Of a stretch of DNA of 64,000 bases, positions 482 through 54,111 are shown in pieces (within the stretch, counting starts at the first letter, position 1; the number at the start of each line of letters is the position of its first letter). The position numbers were made by a program, and so were the translations under genes. Source of the stretch: Halobacteriovorax marinus (GTDB taxonomy: Bacteria; Bdellovibrionota; Bacteriovoracia; Bacteriovoracales; Bacteriovoracaceae); contig MAAO01000006.1 in assembly GCA_002163155.1 (NCBI GenBank), positions 1,364,001 through 1,428,000 of the forward strand, read 5' to 3'. The notes beneath the pieces are model-generated. The model saw nothing but the letters and a program-made list of their open reading frames with translations. It did not search any database and was not told where the DNA came from.

Positions 482-586
482 TAGTTATTCTTCGTTTTGA
501 ATATTCTAAAATGATTTTTAATTAATTTTTATAGAATTTGGTACATAGAGGTTTCTAGATATTGGTGGTTAATTCGTTCTATCCTT
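482..586 (+). repeat. Dispersed repeat R1 (left end decayed)
   Basis: Matches the family from the block like ttcttcgttttgaat through ggttaattcgttctatcctt. The first 30 or so bases are not recognisable. The last base, T586, is also part of the TGA stop of the minus-strand gene to the right. Confidence 0.75.
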
Positions 587-1236
587 CAAGCCTCTCTTAT
601 TTCACTAAACTCTTCCAACTCTTTCCAGATTTTATACGTTGAGGCTTTCGAGCTTTTAAGCTTTTTCATCGCACCATATGATTTGTCTACAAGCTTTAAA
701 TCTCTAAGTGTTGCTATATCTGCTCTAAGTCCAACGCCGAACACAAGTCTATTTCTGTACCAAGTGTTACTTTTGAGTAGTTTTGCTCTACTGATAAGTT
801 TTACTTTGTGTTGTTTTTGAAAAGGAATAGTATAAATTCCAAATTTAGATAGAATAGTATCTTTACCTTGGAGCTCTACTCTTTTTTCTGAGCTTAGAAA
901 ATAAGAGCTACCTTTTGATTGTTGTTTCAGCTTTTTTAAGAGCTTCTTATACGAAGCTCCATTGGCCTCAGGAAGCTGTTGAATAATTGCTGCTAAGAAT
1001 CCTGAGCTTAATTGATCTAGCTTGTCAGAGTAGTGAAATATCACCTCTAAGCGTAAGAAATTAGAATACTCATTCGTTGCGAGACATAAAAGAGAATAGT
1101 ATCTTCTAGAAGTTTGAAATTCTTTTAATTGAACAATGGATACAAGAGCCTCTTCAGGGGAGATTATTGTTTGCTTCGTCTTTACAGTAAAGGCAATTCC
1201 AAGAACTGATAGATATTCTTCAGTAGCATTTAACAT
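586..1236 (-). CDS. 216-aa partner protein of nucleotidyltransferase module, copy 1
   Basis: A soluble protein of 216 residues, about 65-70% identical by eye to the gene at 18894-19544. A GGAG ribosome site precedes the ATG. The C-terminus (VGLRADIATLRDLKLVDKSY then SSKASTYKIWKELEEF) looks like a helix-turn-helix region. In copy 2 the upstream gene is a nucleotidyltransferase-like protein, which suggests a two-gene toxin-antitoxin or abortive-infection type module. Here the nucleotidyltransferase partner is internally deleted, so this gene survives alone. The family is not one I can name. The function is inferred only from gene pairing. Confidence 0.7.
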   Translation of the reverse strand: MLNATEEYLSVLGIAFTVKTKQTIISPEEALVSIVQLKEFQTSRRYYSLLCLATNEYSNFLRLEVIFHYSDKLDQLSSGFLAAIIQQLPEANGASYKKLLKKLKQQSKGSSYFLSSEKRVELQGKDTILSKFGIYTIPFQKQHKVKLISRAKLLKSNTWYRNRLVFGVGLRADIATLRDLKLVDKSYGAMKKLKSSKASTYKIWKELEEFSEIREA

Positions 1237-1239
1237 AGA

Positions 1240-1372
1240 CTATTCTCCGAAACCTAGTTTTAGTCTAAGTTCATCTAGAATTGCTACTTTGCAATTAACT
1301 TGAAAAGCTTGTCAGGGAGTAGACGGCTGAGTTCTTTAAGTCCTGTATTAATAACTTTAAATCCAAGCTCAT
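1240..1372 (-). pseudogene. Nucleotidyltransferase remnant with internal deletion
   Basis: The first ~20 codons and the last ~25 codons of the gene at 19548-20101 are present, but about 420 bp between them is missing. The junction at 1318-1322 is AGTAG. In the intact relative, AGTAG occurs at both deletion ends, so the loss fits microhomology-mediated deletion. The remaining N-terminal part also carries a one-base insertion, leaving only a 25-codon stub from the ATG at 1372. Confidence 0.75.
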
Positions 1373-1435
1373 AACGACTCCTTTTGTTGAATCATACACT
1401 ATGGCTCTTTAAAAAGGCATACCGTTTTTTAGGTA

Positions 1436-1969
1436 GTTTTATCTGCGAACGGGGCTTTTTCGTTGTTTAAAGGTTTCAAATGTTAATTTTCTTTTTAATT
1501 TTAGAGACTTACTTGAGGATGGGAAAGTTGATGGCAAATGTACACCGTGGGTTTTCTTCTTTCATATGTGATTTTCCATTTAATTTGTTTTATTTTAAGT
1601 AGTTATAGCGCATTTTTTGGAGGGCGTAAATGGGGGATTTAGTCGTTTGGAGTTGAGGTTCTATGTGATTATAGAGGGTTGGGAGCGTGGTTTTTACGTG
1701 GTTTTTTATCTGTGTAGGTTTGGTGTTATTTGGTTTTATCTTTTTTTAATGGGCAACGGGACTTTTTCGGGACTATTTTATACTTTCATATGCCTTTCTT
1801 TTGCCATCTTAGGGTCTTAGATTGTTTTCATAAGAGATGAGTTCCAATGTGCATCGCTGAAGATAAATAGCGAAGTTTATTAAATATTTGTTCTCATCGT
1901 TCTCATCTTTGTTTTGAAGAGCATTGTTGGTGAGTGTGTTGAGTGGAGTTGTGCTCTAATTTCTGAATT
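1436..1969 (+). mobile_element. IS91-like non-autonomous remnant, copy A
   Basis: Starts with the block gcgaacggggctttttcg and keeps the element's upstream region: the cgtgggttttctt block, then ttttggagggcgtaaatg with its ribosome site. It ends with the same hairpin-containing terminal block (ggagttgtgctctaatttctg) that ends the complete element at 5394. The transposase gene is absent. An ORF at 1617-1820 lies in this sequence and is not considered real. R2 begins directly after its right end, as in copies B and C. Confidence 0.7.
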
Positions 1970-2108
1970 ATCTAAGAGAGTGGGAGAGTTCTTCCCCGTT
2001 TTGATTCTTTTAACATGGTTTTGATTTATATTTATATAAAATGATAGTTGTAGGGGAGATTGATACATTGAGACTTCTTGATAAATAGGGTTAATTTGTC
2101 CTATCCTT
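1970..2108 (+). repeat. Dispersed repeat R2
   Basis: Full-length copy from tatctaag to ctatcctt with the ggagagttcttcccc hairpin block, ttttaacatggttttg, taggggagattgat and a recognisable right end. It directly follows IS91-like remnant A. Confidence 0.9.
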
Positions 2109-2751: not shown

Positions 2752-2889
2752 TACCTAAGAAGATTGGAGAGTTCTTCTCCGTTTGAATTATTTTAACATG
2801 GTTTTGTAATGTTTTATTTTTAAAATGTTATCTATAGGGGAGATTGATACTTTGAGATTTCTTGAATAATAGGACTTGTTTGACCTTCT
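2752..2889 (+). repeat. Dispersed repeat R3
   Basis: Full copy from tacctaagaagattgg. The right end is diverged (tttgaccttcta instead of tcgtcctatcctt). Confidence 0.85.
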
Positions 2890-2954: not shown

Positions 2955-3302
2955 TTAGGCCGCTTTACCTTTTAATATCTTATTTCTCATTTTAACAATT
3001 TTTTCTAGTTCTTTATTCGTAGTAACTCCATTTGGAAATAAAATAGATGACGGATGAAGGCCGATTGCAGCTGCTATCTTAGTCGCTGTTTGTACACCTA
3101 TATTTCTTTTGTCATTCTCAACTGCTGATAGGAAAGAAGTTTTTATACCTGTCATGTCTGATACATCTTTTTGAGTAAGACCTTGTGACTCTCTTCTCGC
3201 ACGTATGATTTGACCCGAAGATATATCCTCACCGATAAGATCGTCTAAGAAGTCTAGAGCGTTAATTTCATTTTTCATAATAACATCCTTAAGAATAGTC
3301 AT
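2955..3302 (-). CDS. higA: HigA-type antitoxin, XRE helix-turn-helix
   Basis: A 115-residue protein with an XRE/Cro helix-turn-helix at about residues 30-90 (ARRESQGLTQKDVSDMTGIK, then FLSAVENDKRNIGVQTATKI). It is encoded downstream of, and overlaps by 14 bp, a RelE-superfamily toxin. Toxin-first order is typical of higBA. The antitoxin neutralises the toxin and represses the operon through the palindrome at 3596-3632. Confidence 0.85.
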   Translation of the reverse strand: MTILKDVIMKNEINALDFLDDLIGEDISSGQIIRARRESQGLTQKDVSDMTGIKTSFLSAVENDKRNIGVQTATKIAAAIGLHPSSILFPNGVTTNKELEKIVKMRNKILKGKAA

Positions 3303-3585
3303 GATCAGTAGTTATCTTAATTACACTAATTTCAATTTTTGACTTCTTTATTCTATATATAATTCGTCCAGAGAAGCTAAAAGATGAAGATCTTTCGTCT
3401 TCTCTTGCTCCCGTAAGTTTGTGATCATTCCAATACTCACAAATTTGAATATACTCTGGTCCTAGCTTTACCATTTCATTAATCCAAGTTTTTATTATAA
3501 GTAGATCATCTTTTGAAATGAGATTTTCTTTTTTAAGCTTAGCTAGTGAGTTTGCGCATTTTTTTGTTAATGTTACTTTATACAC
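3289..3585 (-). CDS. higB: HigB/RelE-superfamily toxin
   Basis: A 98-residue basic protein. Features include MYKVTLTKKCANSLAKLKK at the start, the central K-L-x-G-A-R-x-D-E-R segment and the C-terminal RIIYRIKK..IEISVIKI strand. These match the RelE/HigB fold of ribosome-dependent mRNA interferases. It is first in the operon with the antitoxin. The cassette also contains the IS91-like element, between R3 and R4. Confidence 0.85.
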   Translation of the reverse strand: MYKVTLTKKCANSLAKLKKENLISKDDLLIIKTWINEMVKLGPEYIQICEYWNDHKLTGAREDERSSSFSFSGRIIYRIKKSKIEISVIKITTDHDYS

Positions 3586-3649: not shown

Positions 3650-5394
3650 ATCTGTTTTTATCCGCTAACGGGACTTTTTCGTGACTATTGATAAGTAGGT
3701 ATTTAAAAGGTCTTTGTTATTAATAGGTTAGATAATGAACTAAGAATTGATGGCAAAAGTGCATCGTGGGTTTTCTTTTTTCATATAAAATTATCCGTTA
3801 AATTTGAATTATTTTAAGTAGTTATAGCGCATTTTTTGGAGGGCGTAAATGAGCGATTTAAATCGAAGCAATATTTTTAGTCGTGATTTCAAAGCCTTAT
3901 TCCACTTCTTTATGGGAAGCGTGTGCATTAGAAGCTTTTTGTGGAAGCAAGTTACAGAGATCCAACTAAAAGCGATTACTACTCAATTCTTATTAAAAAT
4001 TACCAGCAAGTCTTTTCTGAGAAAGAGTCTGCAGGAGTTTCTTTTCCTTATCACCTGAAGAAGGAGTTTAGGCGCTTTCTTAGTTGTGGCGTCATGGCAG
4101 AAGGTTTTGCTCGATTTCATTGTAGTGGGTGTCGTAGAGATAAGTTGGTGGCCTTCTCTTGTAAAGGTAGAAGCATTTGTCCCAGTTGTTCTGGTCGTCG
4201 TATGAATGATACCGCTATTCATCTTATGGATGAAGTCATTCCTGAAGTTCCTGTTCGGCAATGGGTTCTTTCTATGCCTTATTCCCATCGTTTTATTTTA
4301 AGTTCCAATAATGATCTTCTTAGAAAAACTTTAGCTATTTACCATAGAGTAATATCTAGCTTTTATACAAACACTGCAAAGAAACTAAATCTAAACTGTC
4401 CTAAGGTTGGTTCAATATGTGTCATTCAAAGATTTGGTGGTTCTATAAATCTTAATGTTCACTTTCATTCTCTATTTATGGATGGAGTGTACTTTGAAAA
4501 TTCTTTAGGTGAACAAGTCTTTAAAGAGATTATTCCAACTGATGAAGATATTCATAGGTTGGTGCATAAGATTAAAACTAGAGTGGATAGATGCTTCAAA
4601 AGGAGTGGAGTCCTTGAAGAGGATTCAAATGAAAAAGAGGAACTGCAGTTAAGTCTTATAAAGTCAGAGAGTATTCAAAACAGAGTGGATGCTTTTAATA
4701 AACCAGGTTTAATAGGTAAGTTGTATGATGCTCCGTATGAGGAGTTTGAGGGGAGGAAATGTTCATATGTTGAAGGCTTTTCACTGCATGCTAATGTAAA
4801 GATTTTAGCTCATCAAAGATCTTCTCTAGAGAGGTTGTGTAGATACGTTGCTAGAGGTCCTGTTGCTATGAGTAGAGTCTCTTTATCAAGGGATGGTTAT
4901 GTCTATTTGAAATTAAAAAATCCTTATAGAGACGGAACGTCACATCTTGAATTTACTCCAGAACAATTTATAAAGAGATTGATTAGTATAATACCTCCTA
5001 GGAGACAGAACTTTATAAGATACTTTGGAGTGTTTGGAGCAAGGCATAGAAATAGAAAGGAGATAACTTCTAAAGCGACTGGGGTTAAGGTAAAGAAAAA
5101 AACAAAGAAGTTGTATAGAACTCCATGGGCAGATTTACTTCGAAGAGTTTACTCAGTGGATGTGAGCAGTTGTTCTCGTTGTGGTTATAAACTTGAATTA
5201 ATTGCGACTATTACTAATCTTAGAGTTTGTAAGAAGATTTTGGATCACTTAAGAATCGATAGTGACTTAGTTGATGAATACTCACCGAGAGGGCCACCTG
5301 AATTAGATGATTCGTCTAATTTTGAAGAGAGTTTTTATAACCAAGAGCATTGCTGGTGAATGTATTGGGTGGAGCTATGCTCTAATTTCTGATT
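3650..5394 (+). mobile_element. IS91-family element, complete (copy B)
   Basis: About 1.74 kb: a left end with the ctaacgggactttttcg block, a 250-bp leader, one HUH transposase gene, and a right end with the hairpin GAGC-tat-GCTC then taatttctga. IS91-family elements move by rolling-circle transposition and have no terminal inverted repeats, and none are seen here. Comparison with copies A and C sets both ends. The right end touches R4 directly. Confidence 0.75.
3941..5359 (+). CDS. IS91/IS801-type HUH transposase
   Basis: 472 residues, the normal size. The N-terminal zinc-binding domain has C-x2-C pairs (HCSGCRRDKLVAFSCKGRSI then CPSCSGRR). The HUH motif is HFH in NLNVHFHSLFMDGVY. The Y2 region includes LCRYVARGPVAMSR and the typical RRQNFIRYFGVFGARHR. 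The C-terminus has WADLLRRVYSVDVSSCSRCG with a second zinc motif. The predicted start is GTG with no clear ribosome site. A strong site (ttggagggcg) instead serves an ATG at 3849 in another frame, whose short ORF overlaps the transposase start. Expression by frameshifting or coupling is therefore possible. Confidence 0.9.
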   Translation: MEASYRDPTKSDYYSILIKNYQQVFSEKESAGVSFPYHLKKEFRRFLSCGVMAEGFARFHCSGCRRDKLVAFSCKGRSICPSCSGRRMNDTAIHLMDEVIPEVPVRQWVLSMPYSHRFILSSNNDLLRKTLAIYHRVISSFYTNTAKKLNLNCPKVGSICVIQRFGGSINLNVHFHSLFMDGVYFENSLGEQVFKEIIPTDEDIHRLVHKIKTRVDRCFKRSGVLEEDSNEKEELQLSLIKSESIQNRVDAFNKPGLIGKLYDAPYEEFEGRKCSYVEGFSLHANVKILAHQRSSLERLCRYVARGPVAMSRVSLSRDGYVYLKLKNPYRDGTSHLEFTPEQFIKRLISIIPPRRQNFIRYFGVFGARHRNRKEITSKATGVKVKKKTKKLYRTPWADLLRRVYSVDVSSCSRCGYKLELIATITNLRVCKKILDHLRIDSDLVDEYSPRGPPELDDSSNFEESFYNQEHCW

Positions 5395-5535
5395 TACCTA
5401 AGAAGATTGGAGAGTCCTTCTCCTTTTTGATTATTTTAACATAATTCTGACTTATATTATTAATAAAAAGGTTAGTGGTAGGGGAGAGTGTTACTTTAAA
5501 TTTCTTGAATAAGGTGTTTAATTCGTCCTATCCTT
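5395..5535 (+). repeat. Dispersed repeat R4 (identical group)
   Basis: 141 bp, identical to R5, R6, R7 and R8. It lies between the IS91-like right end and a truncated tyrosine recombinase. Confidence 0.95.
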
Positions 5536-5540
5536 GAAGG

Positions 5541-5756
5541 ATTCAAAGGGCCTTAGAGAAGTTTCATAGGATCTATCCAAACCAAAAGCCGTGGAGGTGT
5601 CATGATCTAAGACATTCATATGCTTATCACTTTCTCAAAAATGGAGGTAATATGTACCAACTTCAAGCAATTCTAGGTCACAAGACTATAGGAATGACTA
5701 TTGACCTCTATGGGCAGCTGAGTGCTATTGATGTTGGGATGGTTGAGGTTTATTGA
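5541..5756 (+). pseudogene. Tyrosine recombinase, C-terminal catalytic fragment
   Basis: An open frame without a start, beginning a few bases after R4. It encodes the end of a phage-integrase catalytic domain: box II HDLRHSYAYHFLKNGG (catalytic H-x-x-R), LGHKT (second histidine) and MTIDLYGQLS (nucleophile tyrosine), then a stop at 5754-5756. The N-terminal two thirds of the protein, including the first arginine, are missing, so it cannot be active. It is cut at the repeat edge like other fragments in the array. Nothing in this part shows whether it was an integron integrase; it looks phage- or Xer-like. Confidence 0.85.
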
Positions 5757-6265: not shown

Positions 6266-6677
6266 AATATCCTCCACCAATAGAACTTGATTCACTTATT
6301 TCACCAATAGAACTTGATTCACTTATTTCACCAATAGAACTTGATTCACTTATTTCATCTTCCTTTTTATCTCCAAAGAAATCAAACATATCCGTAAATT
6401 TATTAAATCCCTCTTTCAGTTCTTTTATCAACCTATCACCACTCTTTACAGCTCTTCTAATATTATCTCCCCATCCTTTTATACGCTTGAGGGCGTTACG
6501 AATTGAATTTGCTGCATCTTTTTTAGCTTTTTTGTAGATTTCTTCTACAGTCATCCCACCAGGATCCACAAAGTTAACAGGATCATTCAACACATATCTA
6601 TAAAGATTTGTATCTCCCCCACCAAACTGAATAGGATCTTTACTTAGCCATCTTCCGGTTTCAGGGTTGTATATCAA
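6255..6677 (-). CDS. Orphan Rhs C-terminal tip 1 (truncated Rhs core plus variable tip)
   Basis: Begins abruptly inside the Rhs core end ([20 protein letters not shown], then [19 protein letters not shown]). That conserved block precedes the variable toxin tip in Rhs polymorphic toxins. The tip is about 100 residues, mostly charged helices, and ends with three copies of EISESSSIG and a GGGYCEI tail. No full-length rhs gene is upstream, so this is a displaced tip, as known for orphan rhs-CT modules. The toxin activity is not recognisable. The first codon is TTG in a frame opened only from about 6711. Confidence 0.7.
6277..6357. repeat. Tandem repeat, 3 x 27 bp
   Basis: Three consecutive identical 27-bp units (each starting ccaatagaacttgattcac) inside the tip-1 gene, encoding EISESSSIG three times. 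The length is a multiple of three, so changes in copy number would keep the frame. Confidence 0.95.
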
Positions 6678-7253: not shown

Positions 7254-7629
7254 TTAGGAGTGAACCAAATAGGCCTTCTCCGACATTAAACAAATCTGAT
7301 CCAAACTTAATATCTAAAGTCTCTGTTTCATCTTCATCAACAGGAAATATGTCACTATCATCTTTACTCTTTTCACAAAAGGTTGAATTTATTCTGCAAA
7401 TGGACTTCTCTCTCACGCCTTTGAGAAAGTCACCAAAATCGAAAAGACCTTTAATCTTATCTATAATAGATTTCTTTTTCCCCTCAGGATCCACAAAGTT
7501 AACAGGATCATTCAACACATACCTATAAAGGTTAGTATCTCCCCCACCAAACTGAATAGGATCCTTACTCAACCAACGACCAGTTTCAGGGTTGTAATCC
7601 CTTGCACCAAATCGAACTAAACCAGTTTT
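7225..7629 (-). pseudogene. Orphan Rhs C-terminal tip 2, cut at R5
   Basis: The frame opens at the left edge of R5 and reads [49 protein letters not shown] and then a variable tip of about 85 residues rich in acidic residues. The first in-frame codon on the repeat side is a TAG formed by the repeat end. The Rhs core is therefore cut where the repeat begins. An internal start would give the 115-residue form 7225-7572. Its core segment (7485-7600) is a near-identical direct repeat of 6557-6677 in tip 1. Confidence 0.75.
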
Positions 7630-7770
7630 TACCTAAGAAGATTGGAGAGTCCTTCTCCTTTTTGATTATTTTAACATAATTCTGACTTATATTATTAATA
7701 AAAAGGTTAGTGGTAGGGGAGAGTGTTACTTTAAATTTCTTGAATAAGGTGTTTAATTCGTCCTATCCTT
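7630..7770 (+). repeat. Dispersed repeat R5 (identical group)
   Basis: 141 bp, identical to R4, R6, R7 and R8. Left neighbour is a cut rhs tip; right neighbour is a cut glycine-rich gene. Confidence 0.95.
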
Positions 7771-7772
7771 GA

Positions 7773-8027
7773 ACTGACACAGGTGGAACAGGCTCAGGCG
7801 GAACGGACACAGGTGGAACAGGCTCAGGTGGAACTGACACAGGTACTGGAGAGAAGCCGAAACTTAACCCTCCTTGGCCTGTTACTGGAGATAAAGATAC
7901 AGATGAAAGAAATAAATCAATTTATTATTTGAATTCAGTCAACCCTCGTAGCCTTTGGTTGAGGTATGAAAAATTTGTACCTACAACAATTCAAGGTCCA
8001 AGAACTATTGGTCCTAGAGGAAGGTAA
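7773..8027 (+). pseudogene. Glycine/threonine-rich protein, 3' fragment (copy 1)
   Basis: An open frame of 84 codons that starts at the R5 edge (the codon before it is a TGA made by the repeat) and ends with TAA. It begins with a low-complexity GGTDTGGTGSGG repeat, then KPKLNPPWPVTGDKDTDERN and a C-terminus YLNSVNPRSLWLRYEKFVP. This is the end of a longer linker-rich protein of unknown family. Its stop overlaps the end of the minus-strand gene by 14 bases. Confidence 0.6.
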
Positions 8028-8520
8028 GGGTTTTCATTTGTTCATAACGTTGACAATCACCACTATTGCCAAAAGAGCAAGATTTTCTATCTAGGCTTGC
8101 TTGATCTCGTAAGATCTGTTGAATTTTAAGCTTACTAGTGTTTTGTCTTAATGCTATTATTAACTCTCTAAAGTTAATAGCAGCTAAGCCTACATAGCCT
8201 CTGTTCTTATTCTTTTTAAGTACTTCATTTGCAAAAGATTTAGCTGATTCAAAACTTCCCTGGTCCATCATTCTATAGATTGTTATAGAGCAGAGATCCT
8301 GATAATTAATTCTGCATACCTTTTTACTAACATTGATACTTTCTTCAAGATTACCAGAATCCTCTAACAGGTCCGTGTACTTCATACATGAAGATGTCAT
8401 TCCTTTGTCACAATCACTTGAAAATTTAACTAGATTTTCATGAAAACTGGCCGCATAAGAATTAATGGTAAAAAGAAAAATAAAAGAAGTAATTGCTATT
8501 TTAATCACTTTAGCCTCCAT
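8014..8520 (-). CDS. Secreted Sel1/TPR-like protein (copy 1)
   Basis: 168 residues with a signal peptide (IAITSFIFLFTINSYAAS) and helical repeat-like segments with paired cysteines (SSDCDKGMTSSCMKYTDLLE; KKVCRINYQDLC; KSCSFGNSGDCQRYEQM). The pattern 'C-x2-G-x3-SC' resembles Sel1-type repeats. It probably sits in the periplasm or is exported; the partner is unknown. An identical second copy lies at 8996-9502. Confidence 0.75.
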   Translation of the reverse strand: MEAKVIKIAITSFIFLFTINSYAASFHENLVKFSSDCDKGMTSSCMKYTDLLEDSGNLEESINVSKKVCRINYQDLCSITIYRMMDQGSFESAKSFANEVLKKNKNRGYVGLAAINFRELIIALRQNTSKLKIQQILRDQASLDRKSCSFGNSGDCQRYEQMKTLTFL

Positions 8521-8611
8521 GACTATCTGGATAATTGTATCTTCTACTGACGAGAAATAAAAGTGTGAAAGGTAAGCTTCTAGAACTTGGACGGGTTGGG
8601 TAATAATTGCT

Positions 8612-8752
8612 TACCTAAGAAGATTGGAGAGTCCTTCTCCTTTTTGATTATTTTAACATAATTCTGACTTATATTATTAATAAAAAGGTTAGTGGTAGGG
8701 GAGAGTGTTACTTTAAATTTCTTGAATAAGGTGTTTAATTCGTCCTATCCTT
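8612..8752 (+). repeat. Dispersed repeat R6 (identical group)
   Basis: 141 bp, identical to R4, R5, R7 and R8. It closes the first copy of the duplicated cassette. Confidence 0.95.
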
Positions 8753-8754
8753 GA

Positions 8755-9009
8755 ACTGACACAGGTGGAACAGGCTCAGGCGGAACGGACACAGGTGGAA
8801 CAGGCTCAGGTGGAACTGACACAGGTACTGGAGAGAAGCCGAAACTTAACCCTCCTTGGCCTGTTACTGGAGATAAAGATACAGATGAAAGAAATAAATC
8901 AATTTATTATTTGAATTCAGTCAACCCTCGTAGCCTTTGGTTGAGGTATGAAAAATTTGTACCTACAACAATTCAAGGTCCAAGAACTATTGGTCCTAGA
9001 GGAAGGTAA
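8755..9009 (+). pseudogene. Glycine/threonine-rich protein, 3' fragment (copy 2)
   Basis: Identical duplicate of 7773-8027, again starting directly at a repeat edge (R6). Confidence 0.6.
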
Positions 9010-9502
9010 GGGTTTTCATTTGTTCATAACGTTGACAATCACCACTATTGCCAAAAGAGCAAGATTTTCTATCTAGGCTTGCTTGATCTCGTAAGATCTG
9101 TTGAATTTTAAGCTTACTAGTGTTTTGTCTTAATGCTATTATTAACTCTCTAAAGTTAATAGCAGCTAAGCCTACATAGCCTCTGTTCTTATTCTTTTTA
9201 AGTACTTCATTTGCAAAAGATTTAGCTGATTCAAAACTTCCCTGGTCCATCATTCTATAGATTGTTATAGAGCAGAGATCCTGATAATTAATTCTGCATA
9301 CCTTTTTACTAACATTGATACTTTCTTCAAGATTACCAGAATCCTCTAACAGGTCCGTGTACTTCATACATGAAGATGTCATTCCTTTGTCACAATCACT
9401 TGAAAATTTAACTAGATTTTCATGAAAACTGGCCGCATAAGAATTAATGGTAAAAAGAAAAATAAAAGAAGTAATTGCTATTTTAATCACTTTAGCCTCC
9501 AT
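8996..9502 (-). CDS. Secreted Sel1/TPR-like protein (copy 2)
   Basis: Protein identical to the product of 8014-8520, with the same upstream region. No silent differences were noticed, so the duplication is recent or is kept uniform by recombination. Confidence 0.75.
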   Translation of the reverse strand: MEAKVIKIAITSFIFLFTINSYAASFHENLVKFSSDCDKGMTSSCMKYTDLLEDSGNLEESINVSKKVCRINYQDLCSITIYRMMDQGSFESAKSFANEVLKKNKNRGYVGLAAINFRELIIALRQNTSKLKIQQILRDQASLDRKSCSFGNSGDCQRYEQMKTLTFL

Positions 9503-9593
9503 GACTATCTGGATAATTGTATCTTCTACTGACGAGAAATAAAAGTGTGAAAGGTAAGCTTCTAGAACTTGGACGGGTTGGGTAATAATTGCT

Positions 9594-9734
9594 TACCTAA
9601 GAAGATTGGAGAGTCCTTCTCCTTTTTGATTATTTTAACATAATTCTGACTTATATTATTAATAAAAAGGTTAGTGGTAGGGGAGAGTGTTACTTTAAAT
9701 TTCTTGAATAAGGTGTTTAATTCGTCCTATCCTT
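9594..9734 (+). repeat. Dispersed repeat R7 (identical group)
   Basis: 141 bp, identical to R4, R5, R6 and R8. In the gap from 9788 to 9942 I see only the start region of the fragment below, an A6G7 homopolymer near 9835-9848, and the promoter region of the epimerase gene. Confidence 0.95.
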
Positions 9735-12097: not shown

Positions 12098-12238
12098 TAC
12101 CTAAGAAGATTGGAGAGTCCTTCTCCTTTTTGATTATTTTAACATAATTCTGACTTATATTATTAATAAAAAGGTTAGTGGTAGGGGAGAGTGTTACTTT
12201 AAATTTCTTGAATAAGGTGTTTAATTCGTCCTATCCTT
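12098..12238 (+). repeat. Dispersed repeat R8 (identical group)
   Basis: 141 bp, identical to R4-R7, followed directly by a truncated ORF6N gene. Confidence 0.95.
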
Positions 12239-12240
12239 AA

Positions 12241-12594
12241 CGTTTTCCTGAGGACTTTATGTTCCGAATTAGTCCTGAGGAGCATGAATCTTTGAGGTCA
12301 CAGTTTGTGACCTCAAACGAGGGAAGAGGTGGTCGAAGGTACCAGCCTCATGTTTTTACAGAGAATGGAGTAGCAATGCTCTCCAGTATATTGAAAAGTG
12401 AGACCGCAATAGATGTAAATATCGCTATTATGAGGACTTTTACACAGCTTAGGAGCTTTATGATGCTGGAGAAGGAGCTTGTAACTAGAATGAGTAGTCT
12501 GGAGATGAATACTGCTGAAGTATTCAAAGTTGTATTTGAAAAACTTGATTCGTTGGATGAGCAATTACCTAGTTTTAAGAAGGATAGAGTTTAG
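12241..12594 (+). pseudogene. ORF6N-domain (phage antirepressor-like) protein, N-terminus missing
   Basis: Codons RFPEDFMFRISPEEHESL begin directly after a TAA formed by the end of R8. Then come YQPHVFTENGVAMLSSIL and ETAIDVNIAIMRTFTQLRSF, the typical body of the ORF6N domain, and a helical C-terminus. The conserved N-terminal ~60 residues of ORF6N are missing. An internal ATG at 12259 could start a 111-residue product, but half of the DNA-binding domain would be absent. Confidence 0.8.
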
Positions 12595-13538: not shown

Positions 13539-13904
13539 TTATTGAACTACAAAATATAAAGAACTAAGAAGTAGACTCGCCATTAAAAAATTAAATCTCT
13601 TCAGCATTACCTGATTACTTAAAATTTTTCTGATTTGTTTTCCTAGAAGTACCCAAGTACTTACGGAAGGAAGATTCACAACTCCAAAAATGAGAGCGAC
13701 TTTTATGATCTCTTGAAAGGTATTTTCGGGAGCATATAAAGTTATAGCTGTTAGGGCCATAGTCCATGCCTTTGGATTTACCCACTGAAATAGGGCCGCT
13801 TGTTTGAATGTTAGTGGTTTTGTTCTAGTGGTATTGTCTTTGTTCGTAGATGTAGAGACTGCAATTTTGTAAGATAGGTAGACAAGGTAGCTAATGCTAA
13901 CTAT
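13539..13904 (-). pseudogene. LysE/RhtB-family exporter, C-terminal fragment cut at R9
   Basis: The minus-strand frame opens at the left end of R9 (its TAG is the first upstream stop) and encodes SYLVYLSYKIA, then FKQAALFQWVNPKAWTMALT. That is the hallmark block of LysE/RhtB amino-acid exporters. Two more membrane segments follow, and a stop at 13539. About 80 N-terminal residues are missing. The R8-R9 unit therefore carries a cut gene at both ends. Confidence 0.82.
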
Positions 13905-14041
13905 CTAAGATAGTGGGAGAGTTCTTCTCCAATTCATTCTAATTAAGATATTTTTTTATGATCTGTTATGAGTGTTGCTTCATATAGAGGAGTTTTGTAC
14001 TTTGGATTATTGGGGAAAGGTGGTTAATTCGTCCTATCCTT
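13902..14041 (+). repeat. Dispersed repeat R9
   Basis: Full length, with the central third diverged; the ends tatctaag and ggttaattcgtcctatcctt are well kept. From 14042 to 14228 I see nothing recognisable. Confidence 0.85.
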
Positions 14042-15458: not shown

Positions 15459-15598
15459 TATCTAAGAAAGTGGGAGAGTTCTTCTCCGTTTTTAATATTT
15501 TAATATGGTTTGTAACGTTTTATTTTAAAAAAGGTTATCTGTAGGGGAGATTAATACTTTAGAATTCTTAAATAAGGTGTTTAATTCGTCCTATCTTT
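15459..15598 (+). repeat. Dispersed repeat R10
   Basis: Full length, well conserved (gtgggagagttcttctccg; ggttatctgtaggggagatt; right end ctatcttt). The gap 15318-15458 before it holds nothing recognisable. Confidence 0.92.
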
Positions 15599-15843: not shown

Positions 15844-17130
15844 GTGAAGCTAGATGAATTAGCAGAAGAGCTTAGGCAACCATATACTCTGAAGAGAGGT
15901 TACGGTGTAACCAAACTTACCAACGCTGAGAGTGATTGGAGGAATATATACTTTGTCGTACCTAAACCTCCACCAAAAGAAATCAAATCCAAGCTACCAC
16001 ATGAACTTTTAAATGAAGCTCTCAAGGTCATTGGCGCCTTGCCAAGAGTGAATGAAATGTCTCAACTAGATAAATTAGTAAATTACTTACTTGTAAGAAG
16101 AGAGGTTGTGCAGTCTTCAAGGTTAGAGGGAACATGGTCGACTATTGATCACGCTTTAACTCCAGGAGATATTGCAGAAAATAATAAAGGAAAAAGTGAG
16201 CATCAAGCAGTCAGAAGTTATGCAAACTTGTTAGAAGAAATAATAGAGAAATCAATTACAAAGAAAGAAGGTATTTTTTCAAAGTCTTTTATCTGTAATA
16301 CTCAAAAACGAATTGTTGAAAATGATCCTCAATCAAGCGGGATACCTGGAAAATTGAGAACAGAAGGAGACCCCGGCGCAATTGTCACGATTGGTGGTGG
16401 TATACGAAAAGAGAATTCTATTTATAATCCAGCACCAGCTGCTGAGATAAACAAATGCTTAGAAGAGATTCTTGATTGGTTACAAGATGATGAGCTTGCT
16501 CAAATAGGAGATGCTGCTGCTGGAGGATTGAGTTTACCAATTAGACTCGCTGTAGCTCATGTTCATTTCGAAGCTGTTCATCCATTTACTGATGGTAATG
16601 GACGAGTAGGGCGCGCTTTATGGCCAATACAAATGGTATGTTCTGGATATATGCCTCTATATTTATCTGGATACGTTGAAGTAAATAAGTCCCAATATAT
16701 AGAATCATTAGAAGAGGCCCAGAAAAAACTAAACTATCTTCCAATGATTGAGTTTATTTGTAATGCGATTATCGAGAGTAGCTTAGAGAATAAAAAATCG
16801 AAAGAAGCTATAAATAATTTAGAGAATACATGGCAAGAGCGAGGTCGATTTAGGGCCAATTCAGGTCCAAGAAAAGCACTAAGTTTATTATTAACAAGGC
16901 CTATAGTATCAACAACGATATTAGAGAAAGAGCTTGGTATTTCTAAAACAGCCAGTGTTAATACGATAAATGCTCTTGTGAATTCAAAGATAATAAAAAT
17001 TAGATCTAAAGAAAGTAGACTTCGTATTTACGCTGCTGAGGAGTTAATTCAAATTCTCTCAAGGCCATTTGGCGAAGAGATTAAATTAGCACTAGAGAAG
17101 GCCCACTTACTTCTTGGCTTAGAAAAATAA
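15844..17130 (+). CDS. fic: Fic-domain protein (AMP-transferase type) with inhibitory helix
   Basis: 428 residues, GTG start. The Fic motif HPFTDGNGRVGR (about residues 246-257) is complete, including the catalytic histidine. An N-terminal SSRLEG at about residue 93 matches the (S/T)-x3-E-(G/N) inhibitory motif of class II Fic proteins, whose glutamate blocks ATP binding. The C-terminal ~90 residues look like a winged helix (ISKTASVNTINALVNSKIIK), the usual layout of the large Fic/DUF4172-like family. Such enzymes transfer AMP to target proteins; the target here is unknown. It is the only gene of the R10-R11 unit. Confidence 0.92.
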   Translation: MKLDELAEELRQPYTLKRGYGVTKLTNAESDWRNIYFVVPKPPPKEIKSKLPHELLNEALKVIGALPRVNEMSQLDKLVNYLLVRREVVQSSRLEGTWSTIDHALTPGDIAENNKGKSEHQAVRSYANLLEEIIEKSITKKEGIFSKSFICNTQKRIVENDPQSSGIPGKLRTEGDPGAIVTIGGGIRKENSIYNPAPAAEINKCLEEILDWLQDDELAQIGDAAAGGLSLPIRLAVAHVHFEAVHPFTDGNGRVGRALWPIQMVCSGYMPLYLSGYVEVNKSQYIESLEEAQKKLNYLPMIEFICNAIIESSLENKKSKEAINNLENTWQERGRFRANSGPRKALSLLLTRPIVSTTILEKELGISKTASVNTINALVNSKIIKIRSKESRLRIYAAEELIQILSRPFGEEIKLALEKAHLLLGLEK

Positions 17131-17158: not shown

Positions 17159-17297
17159 TATCTAAGAAGATTGGAGAGTTCTTCTCCGTTTGAATTATTT
17201 TAACATGATTTTGATTTATATTATTTAATAAGGCTAGGTGTAGTGGAGAATGATACTTTAGAATTCTTGAATAAGGTGTTTAATTCGTCCTATCCTT
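17159..17297 (+). repeat. Dispersed repeat R11
   Basis: Full length, high similarity to the R4-R8 group at both ends. Confidence 0.93.
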
Positions 17298-18743: not shown

Positions 18744-18882
18744 TACCTAAGAAGATTGGAGTCTTTTTCTCCGTTTTGATTATTTTAACATGATTTTGAT
18801 TTATTTTATCTGAAAAGATATTTGTAGGGGAGATTTGTACTTTTAGATTTCTTGAATAAGGTGTTTAATTCGTCCTATCCTT
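18744..18882 (+). repeat. Dispersed repeat R12
   Basis: Full length, close to consensus. Confidence 0.93.
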
Positions 18883-18893
18883 AATCAGTATTT

Positions 18894-19544
18894 TTACGCT
18901 TCTTTGATTCCGCTAAACTCTTCTAGTTCTTTCCATATCTTGTAAGTAGAGGCCTTTGAACTTTTAAGTTTTTTCATGGCACCGTATGACTTCTCAACTA
19001 TTTTAAGATCTCTTAGTGTTGCAATATCAGCTCTAAGGCCTACTCCAAACACAAGCCTGTTTCTGTACCATGTACTATTTGTTAGCAGTTGAGTCCTGCT
19101 TGCAAGCTTTGCTCTATGTTGCTTCTGGAATGGGGTGGTGTAGATTCCAAACTTCTCTAGGTTTGGATCTGTTCCTTGCAATTCAACGCGCTTTTCAGAA
19201 CTTAGGAAATAGTTATTTCCTTTTGCTTGGGACTTGAGTCTCTTAAGTAGTTTCTTGTGCCAAGCTCCAGATGCTCCAGGCAACTGTTGTACAATTGAAC
19301 CTAAGAAGCCTGAGCTTATTTGATCTAGACCCTCAGAGTAGTGATATATCACTTCTAAGCGTAAGAAGCTTGAGAACTCTGATATTGCCAAGCATAGTAA
19401 AGAATAATACCTTCTCGAACTGTGAAACTCATTTAACTGAACTAAAGAAACAAGAGCTTCTTCTGGAGATACGTTTGATTGGGATAACTTTTCTGTAAAA
19501 GCTATCCCGAGTATTGAAAGATTTTCTTCAGCTTGACTCAGCAT
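18894..19544 (-). CDS. 216-aa partner protein of nucleotidyltransferase module, copy 2
   Basis: Relative of the gene at 586-1236 with the same length and the same C-terminal HTH-like block (SSKASTYKIWKELEEFSGIK). Its ATG follows the nucleotidyltransferase stop codon by 3 bp, with the ribosome site inside the upstream gene, so the two are coupled. The pairing suggests the toxin-antitoxin or abortive-infection class in which a nucleotidyltransferase acts with a DNA-binding partner. Which one is the toxin cannot be decided here. Confidence 0.72.
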   Translation of the reverse strand: MLSQAEENLSILGIAFTEKLSQSNVSPEEALVSLVQLNEFHSSRRYYSLLCLAISEFSSFLRLEVIYHYSEGLDQISSGFLGSIVQQLPGASGAWHKKLLKRLKSQAKGNNYFLSSEKRVELQGTDPNLEKFGIYTTPFQKQHRAKLASRTQLLTNSTWYRNRLVFGVGLRADIATLRDLKIVEKSYGAMKKLKSSKASTYKIWKELEEFSGIKEA

Positions 19545-19547
19545 AAT

Positions 19548-20101
19548 CTATTCTCCAAATCCTAGCTTTACTCTAATTTCATTTAGAATGACTTCTTTAA
19601 AATTAACTTGAAAGAACTGATCAGGGAGTAGCATTACTTGTTTTGCAACCTTCTCGAACAATTCAGCGTTTCCTTTTGTCAGATCTTTTATATCTGTAAA
19701 GTCTTCCTCTCTATTAATCTCGGCCAATTTTTTTGAAATAAAATATCTTCATTATCAAAAACATAAATTTCAAGAGAAGGGTATGACTTTTCAAGAGTAG
19801 AGCGAAGCTTCCAATCTTTTGGAAGAGCTTGCTCCAGATTGTATGCTTGGCAAAAAGGATTAAGCCAGTTTTCTTCTAGGCCATCAATATTCTTTGCTAC
19901 AAGATTAATGAGTTCAGTAAGATCTTTGTCATCTTTTGGTAAAACAAAATCTATGTCATGAGTAACTGCGACTGAACGGATATTCCTAAGAATTAGGCTT
20001 GCTCCTCCGCAGATATAGATGGAGGCCTTAGTATTCTCTTTCTCCAGTAGTCGGCTTAGCTCGTTAAGTCCTGTTTCTATTAACTCTAAATCCAAGCTCA
20101 T
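19548..20101 (-). pseudogene. DUF6036-like nucleotidyltransferase, frameshifted
   Basis: The N-terminal 137 residues are in one frame, with YICGGASLILRNIRSVAVTH and then DIDFVLP. This is the G-G-x-A...D-x-D core of DUF6036-like nucleotidyltransferases. The frame is then lost in a run of seven A (coding strand, near 19730). Adding one A restores a reading frame (LAEINREEDFTDIKDLTKGN ... VILNEIRVKLGFGE) that ends at 19548 just before the partner gene. The cause may be a real mutation, slippage during expression, or a homopolymer sequencing error. Confidence 0.78.
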
Positions 20102-20130
20102 ATATATACTCCTTATATGAGATTATATGC

Positions 20131-20152
20131 TATGGCTTTTTAAAAAGCCATA
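20131..20152. promoter_or_regulatory. Perfect 22-bp palindrome upstream of nucleotidyltransferase module
   Basis: TATGGCTTTTT and its exact complement meet without a spacer, 30 bp before the minus-strand start. A decayed version is at 1393-1414 in copy 1. It could be an operator for the HTH-like partner or a short terminator. Confidence 0.6.
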
Positions 20153-20159
20153 GTGGCTT

Positions 20160-20734
20160 TTAGTTAGTTTTATCTACGAACGGGGCTTTTTCGTTGTTTA
20201 AAGGTTTCAAATGTTAATTTTCTTTATAATTTTAGAGACTTACTTGGGGATGGGAAAGTTGATGGCAAAAGTGCATCGTGGGCTTTCTTCTTTCATATAA
20301 AATTATGCGTTAAATTTGTTTTATTTTAAGTAGTTATAGCGCATTTTTTGGAGGGCGTAAATGGGGGATTGAGAAGGGTCTAGTGAGATGTTTATGTGAT
20401 TATAGTGAGCTGTGGACCCTGGTTTTGCGTGATTTTTTTTCTCTGCTTAGTTTTCAACTACTTCGGGGCGATTTCATTTTCTTGAAGAGCGGGGTTTTTT
20501 CGTGGTTAAAATGACACATTCAAACTGATTCTTTTTTGATTTTAAGGGGTTAATTCAGGGGGCGATATATAGTCTCCAATGTGCACCGCTGAAGATTCTG
20601 AGTGATGTTTATAATAGTTCTCTTAGTTCTCTTAGTTCTCTTAGTTCTCTTAGTTCTCTTTTTTATTTTGAAGAGTATTGTTGGTGAGTGTGTTGGATAG
20701 AGTGTTGGATAGAGTTGTGTTTTAATTTCTGAAT
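20160..20734 (+). mobile_element. IS91-like non-autonomous remnant, copy C
   Basis: Nearly identical to copy A over the first ~190 bp (gcgaacggggctttttcg-type block to ttttggagggcgtaaatg). Weaker sequence follows, including a second cggggttttttcg block near 20491 and four tandem gttctctta-type octets at 20620-20656. The shared right-end block (tgttggtgagtgtgttgga ... taatttctgaa) comes last. There is no transposase gene. R13 follows directly. Confidence 0.7.
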
Positions 20735-20859
20735 TGTCTAAGGTAGTGGATGATTTGTTCTGTGTTTAGTTTGATTAACGTATATTATAAATTTAATTTC
20801 TGATAAAAGCTCTCTGTAAGGGGATTTTTGAATATAGGTGGTTAATTTGTCTTATCCTT
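20735..20859 (+). repeat. Dispersed repeat R13 (diverged)
   Basis: Ends recognisable (tgtctaaggtagtgg; ggttaatttgtcttatcctt); centre diverged and shortened. The gap 20860-21002 contains a likely TATAAT-type -10 near 20940 for the following gene. Confidence 0.75.
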
Positions 20860-31836: not shown

Positions 31837-31977
31837 CATTTAAGAAGATTGGAGAGTTCTTCTCCGTTTGAATTATTTTAACATGGTTTTGATTTATCTC
31901 ATTGAATAAATGAATGTCTGTAGGGGAGGTTAATACTTTAGAATTCTTGAATAAGGTGGTTAATTCGCCCTATCCTT
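31837..31977 (+). repeat. Dispersed repeat R20
   Basis: 141 bp, close to consensus except the left end (catttaag instead of tatctaag). It ends at the stop codon of the RelA/SpoT gene. Confidence 0.93.
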
Positions 31978-32979
31978 CTATAGCTGATCAAGAACAATTT
32001 GAGATAAGATTTTTAATAGATTTCTAGTATCCAAGAAATAATTAGGATAGGATTTTTGAATCTTTTCGACATCTTCAATATTAACAAAAACAATATTCTT
32101 AAATTCATTGTCTTTGTAATTTAACTCTTTCTCTGTATAGATTTTGATAGCTTTTGTAACGTTCTTTTTAGTGTACACGTCGATAGTTGTCGTTTTTTCT
32201 TTTAAGTCTAGTTCTAGGATCGCATACTTTCCCATTCTTCCTGTTTCATTTTGTTTATTAACTATAACCTGGATACTATTTGTTGTAGCGTTCAACCTTT
32301 CTATGACTTTTAAATCTTTAATTATTTTTTTTAATTGAGTTTTAAGTTTCTTCTTACTGAGTTTTAAGTGAATATCCAAAGGAGTAGAATTCTCTAGAAT
32401 TGCAAAATAAGAGCTAAGAAGACTGAAGAAGTCTTTCCATTGCTTATCACCTTCTCCCGTTTTAAAAGAAGTATTTTGCAGCTCTCCATATGTCTCTACT
32501 GCTGTGGCCCAGATGTGCTGTAAATCAGTCCTTAACTGAACCTCTATCAAGTCAGACTTCTTATTTTGATAGATTAAGTGAACTCCTCTATATCCATCAT
32601 TTTTTGGTGCACTGGTATAGTTGTCTAGCTTTTTTAATGTATGTTTATCTGGCAATATTCGTAGAGCAGTGAGGGCTTCATCCAAGGCATTTTTACTTTT
32701 TACCACAACTCTTAAGCCTGCTATGTCTTGGAGTGTACTTAATCTCATTGTTTTAAATCTTTTAAGTTTTATTTTTATAGAATCGATTCTTTTTAGCCTT
32801 CTAGATAATGTGACCCTTTCTTTCTCATCAGTCTTGATGGAGATCTTTTTGAAATAATAGTCAAGAGTGGTCGAGAAGCCGTCTCTCCATTGGAGTAGCT
32901 GCGCTAACTCCTCAGAATTTAGATTCTTTTCTGCCTTTAGTTTTTCTCCAATTCTGTCAATTCTCTTTTTAGAAATCAT
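31978..32979 (-). CDS. RelA/SpoT-domain nucleotide synthetase (small alarmone synthetase type)
   Basis: 333 residues. The synthetase domain is at about 60-190: LQDIAGLRVVV, DGYRGVHLIYQ (the Y-x-G-x-H region) and EVQLRTDLQHIWA with the catalytic-region glutamate. No HD hydrolase, TGS or ACT domain is present. The C-terminal ~130 residues are unassigned. Such single-domain enzymes make (p)ppGpp or, in toxSAS proteins, modify nucleotides or tRNA to stop growth, usually beside an antitoxin. No antitoxin gene is adjacent here. It is alone in the R20-R21 unit and its stop touches R20. Confidence 0.85.
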   Translation of the reverse strand: MISKKRIDRIGEKLKAEKNLNSEELAQLLQWRDGFSTTLDYYFKKISIKTDEKERVTLSRRLKRIDSIKIKLKRFKTMRLSTLQDIAGLRVVVKSKNALDEALTALRILPDKHTLKKLDNYTSAPKNDGYRGVHLIYQNKKSDLIEVQLRTDLQHIWATAVETYGELQNTSFKTGEGDKQWKDFFSLLSSYFAILENSTPLDIHLKLSKKKLKTQLKKIIKDLKVIERLNATTNSIQVIVNKQNETGRMGKYAILELDLKEKTTTIDVYTKKNVTKAIKIYTEKELNYKDNEFKNIVFVNIEDVEKIQKSYPNYFLDTRNLLKILSQIVLDQL

Positions 32980-36086: not shown

Positions 36087-36226
36087 TATCTAAGTAAGTG
36101 GGAGAGTTCATCTCTGTTTCAATTATTTTAAAAAATTTTTGATTTATTTCTTTTGAAAGGTTGGAGTTAGGGGAGATCTAATACTTTTGGATTTCTTGAT
36201 TAATGGGGTTAAATTGTCTTATCTTT
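36087..36226 (+). repeat. Dispersed repeat R22
   Basis: Full length, moderately diverged (tatctaagtaagtgggag; taggggagatctaatactttt; gtcttatcttt). In the remaining gap 35800-36086 there is only a weak TTG-started minus ORF (35819-36043), not called. Confidence 0.85.
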
Positions 36227-40328: not shown

Positions 40329-40467
40329 TATCTAAGAAGATGTGAGGGTCATTCTTGGTTATTAATATTTCGACATGATTTGATTTATATTATTTAAATA
40401 AAGGTTATCTGCAGGGGGAGTGATGCTTTAGATTCCTTGAATAAGGTGATTCATTTGTCTTGTCCTT
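40329..40467 (+). repeat. Dispersed repeat R24
   Basis: Full length, somewhat diverged (tatctaagaagatgtgagg; aaggttatctgcagggggag; cttgtcctt). Before it, at 40266-40290, there are three short tandem ggtaa units. The rest of 40095-40539 has only a hairpin near 40495-40516 that may terminate the gene to the right. Confidence 0.85.
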
Positions 40468-53975: not shown

Positions 53976-54111
53976 TATCTAAGCAAAGTAGGAGAGTCCT
54001 TCTCCGTTATAAGTATTTTAACATTGCGTATATATTTTTTTAAAAGCTAGTTGTAGGTGAGACTGATACTTTGAAATTTCTTGAAGAGTGGGGTTAGTTT
54101 GTACTATTTTT
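53976..54111 (+). repeat. Dispersed repeat R33
   Basis: Full length, moderately conserved (tatctaagcaaagtaggag; gtgagactgatactttg; right end diverged to gtactattttt). Confidence 0.85.

Follow-up and report, generated by a model that had tools for sequence, protein, structure and literature searches.

A perfect tandem duplication in a putative ISCR-type, integron-like cassette array of Halobacteriovorax marinus

The window analyzed here is a stretch of 64,000 nucleotides from Halobacteriovorax marinus (contig MAAO01000006.1, positions 1,364,001 to 1,428,000), within which all positions are counted from its first letter. With a probability that we put at about two in three, it represents most of a ~68-kb array of the ISCR type, organized in the manner of an integron, in which cassettes of foreign DNA each end on their right in an oriIS-like unit. 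One of these cassettes is present twice in direct succession, without a single difference between the copies.

Repeat units and the tandem duplication

The repeat on which the array is built is ~140–142 bases long and was found in about 30–35 copies by profile search, a number that varies with the profile threshold; the significant copies all lie on the + strand (Table 1). Together they span about 68–70 kb (C1:1360563-1429044), which in window coordinates is about −3437 to 65044. A whole-genome search showed that this one chromosomal locus holds all of them; on another contig, a lone stretch of 23 bp (L217:3864-3886, G000:C8:22864) matches the right end, but the rest of the unit is absent there. 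The five units R4 to R8 show no differences over 141 bases, and the remaining repeats are 72–88% identical to them; in the window genome, the identity of units declines weakly with their distance from the transposase gene (rho −0.42, p 0.054). Comparison of the copies reveals that, in each lineage, the unit is sharply bounded on its left (about TTAAnTAAGA) as well as on its right, with variable sequence in the right flanks. An IS91-type target tetranucleotide was not recognized beside the right end; the final four bases of the unit are lineage-specific, but may be just a part of the end.

The array adjoins prfC, and in a second species of the genus (G002) three copies of the repeat lie beside its own prfC. 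This gene is the attachment gene of SXT-type elements, and we considered the ends of prfC-type islands as the origin of the repeats, but rejected it. The 5′ end of prfC (its first ~13 codons) has been copied together with its upstream region into the array (1528-1641, 3747-3860 and 20259-20370; also at L030:12842-12952), and the copies at 1528, 3747 and 20259 form a separate repeat. In another genome (G004), a region with two tyrosine recombinases is located about 20 kb upstream of prfC.

Table 1. Features of the array in window coordinates
Feature	Position	Strand	Basis or remark
Right-end unit, degenerate	483..586	+	profile search
Old cassette, full-length paralogue of 18883-20859	587..2108		
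Right-end unit, transposase-gene 3′-end remnant before it	1969..2108	+	profile search
Right-end unit, right end damaged	2752..2886	+	profile search
ISCR/IS91-family HUH transposase, 472 aa	3941..5359	+	Pfam, NCBIfam, alignment
R4, directly downstream of transposase gene	5395..5535	+	
5′-truncated tyrosine recombinase fragment, cut at R4 right end	5541..5756	+	Phage_integrase 1.1e-9
R5, identical to R4	7630..7770	+	
Cassette copy 1 (837-bp spacer and R6)	7771..8752	+	identical to 8753-9734
168-aa secreted-type protein gene, copy 1	8014..8520	-	ORF, Pfam/NCBIfam search
R6, identical to R4	8612..8752	+	
Cassette copy 2 (837-bp spacer and R7)	8753..9734	+	identical to 7771-8752
168-aa gene, copy 2	8996..9502	-	ORF
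R7, identical to R4	9594..9734	+	
R8, identical to R4	12098..12238	+	
5′-truncated ORF6N gene, cut at R8 right end	12259..12594	+	profile positions 44-86 of 86 only
Right-end unit	13902..14041	+	profile search
Right-end unit	15459..15598	+	profile search
Right-end unit	17159..17297	+	profile search
Right-end unit	18744..18882	+	profile search
Old cassette, paralogue of 587-2108	18883..20859		
Right-end unit, transposase remnant before it	20737..20859	+	profile search
Right-end unit	31840..31977	+	profile search
Right-end unit	36087..36225	+	profile search
Right-end unit	40329..40467	+	profile search
Right-end unit	53976..54107	+	profile search
Further degenerate units	21331, 24268, 25015, 33091, 41888, 45672, 46782, 57512, 58166, plus outside window		profile search

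A preliminary description of this DNA had reported a 982-bp unit occurring twice without differences, and a self-comparison of the window bears this out: 7771-8752 and 8753-9734 agree at 982 of 982 bases, which is not a matter of chance. At an offset of 982, identity is unbroken over 7629 to 8753 (1125 positions), and the duplication consists of repeat, 837-bp spacer, repeat, spacer and repeat. The borders, which had been set exactly at the right ends of R5, R6 and R7, are validly placed there, yet this is one of about 143 equivalent placements: since the three repeats are identical, the duplication alone leaves the border unfixed and the breakpoint may lie anywhere inside the ~142-base repeat. 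A truncated coding fragment occupies the left end of the spacer, which also contains the gene for a 168-aa protein. The start of this protein resembles a signal peptide, and searches against Pfam and NCBIfam gave no family matches.

Excision of a circle and its re-insertion is a candidate origin of the duplication, and the sequence would look no different after unequal recombination of identical repeats; judged from the letters, a transposase, RecA crossing-over and, with lower likelihood, misassembly would be indistinguishable as its source. A stronger proposal is that RecA recombination between long identical direct repeats made both the duplication and most of the change in the array, the transposase being irrelevant to the duplication. 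We give this proposal slightly less than an even chance. The identity of R5 to R7 over 141 bp suffices for homologous recombination and the breakpoint ambiguity spans the whole repeat, but the proposal leaves the origin of the array, its uniform orientation and the like clusters in other families of the phylum unaccounted for. For the 982-bp duplication itself, a RecA origin is fully open and is compatible with the ISCR-type reading of the array. That the second copy was produced by the assembly is improbable. Although the copies are perfectly identical, five identical 141-bp repeats with differing spacers were kept in order within a 1.45-Mb contig, and the array contains a separate, old cassette duplication.

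The transposase and the identity of the right end

The transposase gene, 35 bp to the left of R4, is the sole intact gene of its kind in the genome. Its product matches the Pfam families Y2_Tnp (5.5e-29) and Zn_Tnp_IS91 (5.5e-17); the best match in NCBIfam is ISCR_clade_Ia (4.6e-89, 299 bits, which is below the exception cut-off of 925), and the NCBIfam IS91 model gives 113 bits against a cut-off of 125. In an alignment with its relatives, the HFH motif (His174, His176) and Tyr302 are invariant, and the CRY motif has a single tyrosine rather than two. An AlphaFold model of the protein had a pLDDT of 48 and was left out of the analysis.

Relatives in other genera have a similar terminus, typically CTAATnnGTCCTATCCTT, some 60–350 bp downstream of their transposase genes. 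ISCR2 (ISVsa3) has the right end GGGCGTTTATTCTTCCTATACGT, which is homologous to that of the window unit, GGTGTTTAATTCGTCCTATCCTT; the last 14 bases agree at 11 positions, and 0.02% of window positions match the ISCR2 end equally well. The ISCR2 end was placed where the matches in plasmid records stop: 1577 of 2980 records contain under 80% of the query and, among the matches listed, the four partial ones starting at position 1 all stop at 235. We take the repeat to be the right (oriIS-like) end of a transposon of the ISCR/IS91 family. A common left end (terIS) was not recognized upstream of the transposase genes of the window and its relatives. An exact-pattern scan of GTDB genomes for the right end of the window lineage returned one match, a lone end.

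The association of transposase and units recurs across the Bdellovibrionota. Transposase relatives with 35–59% identity are followed downstream by a like right end and accompanied by clusters, in the same orientation, of their own units; these are 120–170 bases long, 88–100% identical, homologous to the ISCR2 end and spaced 1–11 kb apart, and these copies lack the transposase. There are three units in G074, and five near the gene in G084, where about 10 more, one of them inverted, are located on another contig. Own-unit copies beside the transposase and in the same orientation are found in G023, G069, G068 and G099, and such copies are also present in five genomes of other families (G303, G058, G271, G165, G261) and on plasmid pBdHAGR1 of Bdellovibrio sp. 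HAGR004. They lie mainly downstream of the transposase, with one copy upstream in each of G303 and G058. Whole-genome searches of two near-complete genomes showed that every unit found in G165 belongs to one same-strand cluster downstream of the transposase, and that G271 has four units downstream of it and two more in a second same-strand cluster. No transposase was detected with the arrays of G002, G009, G095 and G083, and no second unit was found in G153, G187 and G214 within the stretch compared; several of the neighbour genomes are fragmented assemblies. Open-licence titles and abstracts on IS91, Halobacteriovorax and Bdellovibrio superintegrons contained no description of such arrays, a search that could have missed an earlier one.

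We also considered whether an IS91 element had inserted beside older repeats. This is disfavoured because the transposases of relatives in several families bring like right ends and copies of their own units with them.

The confinement of the repeats to a single locus and one orientation, together with mostly small and varied genes that include toxin-antitoxin-like and defence-like ones, would also fit a chromosomal integron or CALIN, whose repeats would be attC sites moved by an integron integrase. We regard this as very improbable, given that the right end is matched by the ISCR2 end, and we rejected an attC identity of the repeat: three units, folded as single-stranded DNA on both strands (six folds), fold no better than shuffles (z −0.96 to 0.81), and an Rfam search of the repeat yielded zero matches. 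Further, the tyrosine recombinases of the genome are all encoded outside the array, bar one truncated fragment directly to the right of R4. The array has no intact integrase, an absence that by itself is compatible with a CALIN.

Cassettes as units of duplication and sharing

Cassettes have a median size of about 1.6 kb including the repeat and often carry one gene. Those at 587-1963 and 18883-20714, which are 17 kb apart and not in tandem, are homologous over their full repeat-to-repeat length, with 73–75% identity. In G083 and G084, two species of a related genus, a two-gene module with its unit is 94% identical and has unrelated flanks, and another cassette gene beside a unit is 97% identical in a different setting. 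The backbone common to both genomes averages 78.5% identity but reaches 93.5% locally, next to the array, and the 94–97% identity of these blocks is therefore by itself no proof of transfer; it is the differing flanks, rather than the identity, that argue for mobility. The homology of the adjoining host gene ends at an identical point in the two genomes. Both the old paralogous pair and the block common to unrelated flanks in G083 and G084 lend independent support to the proposal, made earlier from the tandem duplication, that the segment between repeats acts as a unit.

The right flanks of R4, R7 and R8 begin within truncated genes, indicating that the captured pieces are not neatly gene-sized. 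The genes cut at these units give way to unrelated DNA across the unit, which argues against the units being miniature IS91-type elements, comparable to the right-end minis of IS801, that were inserted singly into ordinary chromosomal DNA. IS801 does give rise to right-end minis of 229–679 nt at high frequency (PMC3189936), and in every lineage the unit is clearly delimited on its left and on its right. Yet such minis would be expected to be scattered in both orientations, whereas a cluster in one orientation is observed. Moreover, removal of the unit restored an open frame in none of 30 cases, which shows that the units did not simply insert into genes, albeit by a test that is blind to intergenic insertions. 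We consider single insertion of minis unlikely.

Among the array genes that match toxin-antitoxin systems or defence candidates are a HipB/HigA-like pair (2955-3585), a Fic gene (SoFic model, 15844-17130), a RelA/SpoT-like gene (PDC-S33, 31978-32979) and the truncated ORF6N gene (PDC-S05, 12259-12594). The segment 5541-7625, cut by repeats on both sides, comprises the truncated tyrosine recombinase along with a pair of orphan RHS-type tails, both of which adjoin a small membrane-protein-like gene of their own. Close to where one RHS tail gene ends, a short sequence of about 26 bp occurs in three tandem copies (6286-6358). The first cassette next to the ISCR-like transposase of G074 contains a FloR/CmlA-family efflux gene and a chloramphenicol phosphotransferase-like gene (L160:10460-12325).

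Proposed mechanism and known systems

In the mechanism we propose for the ISCR-type array, the HUH transposase would nick a unit at its right end, on the bottom strand, and carry a single strand leftwards across the unit and the DNA beside it as far as the next right end. This would yield one cassette with one unit, which would then enter a resident unit at its right end, by insertion or by recombination, and cassettes would in this way accumulate in one orientation beside the transposase. R4 to R8 would be identical because they were recently copied from the unit of the resident transposase. In the 982-bp duplication, one cassette might have been doubled, whether through a rolling-circle dimer, through re-insertion or through a RecA crossover of identical repeats. 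This model does not account for the sharpness of the unit's left end or for the joining of new DNA there.

A bolder reading, which we advance tentatively and would not bet on, is that the Bdellovibrionota possess a second, independently evolved kind of integron. In its fixed-locus arrays, the 120–170-bp unit, defined at its left and right ends, would serve an HUH rolling-circle transposase as the site where cassettes attach, and ISCR elements carrying one or two copies of oriIS would be reduced relatives of such platforms.

ISCR elements have been associated with the dissemination of resistance genes. Their transposition is so far without experimental demonstration (PMC13393415), and a natural array with many copies, which has transposase, ends and captured genes together, could serve as a test bed for it. 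The array would also show that gene collecting of the integron kind is feasible on another enzyme. How a cassette acquires its end, a question that is open for integrons too, would become comparable across many lineages.

Chromosomal integrons and superintegrons resemble the window in having cassettes at a fixed locus, with a similar repeat at one end and in one orientation, and in having the most similar repeats near the enzyme gene. Unlike them, the window array has an HUH transposase and oriIS-like ends, and lacks an integron integrase and the attC hairpin. With ISCR elements of the IS91 family (ISCR2/ISVsa3, ISCR28), it has in common the HUH transposase, a homologous right end on the oriIS side and neighbouring genes that are mobilized, the last presumably so in the array. 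The described ISCR cases, however, have one or two ends and are found on plasmids or islands, whereas in the window it is the right end alone that recurs, some tens of times and without further copies of the transposase, in an array fixed in the chromosome. In ISCR28, a gene located between two successive oriIS copies has been termed a ‘sandwich’ (PMC12772301). For IS801, also of the IS91 family, the right end is essential and short right-end derivatives move by one-ended transposition (PMC3189936); its minis are separate single insertions, whereas the ends in the window are cassette ends within one array. One-ended transposition of IS801 and the ‘sandwich’ of ISCR28 are the nearest precedents for the proposed mechanism.
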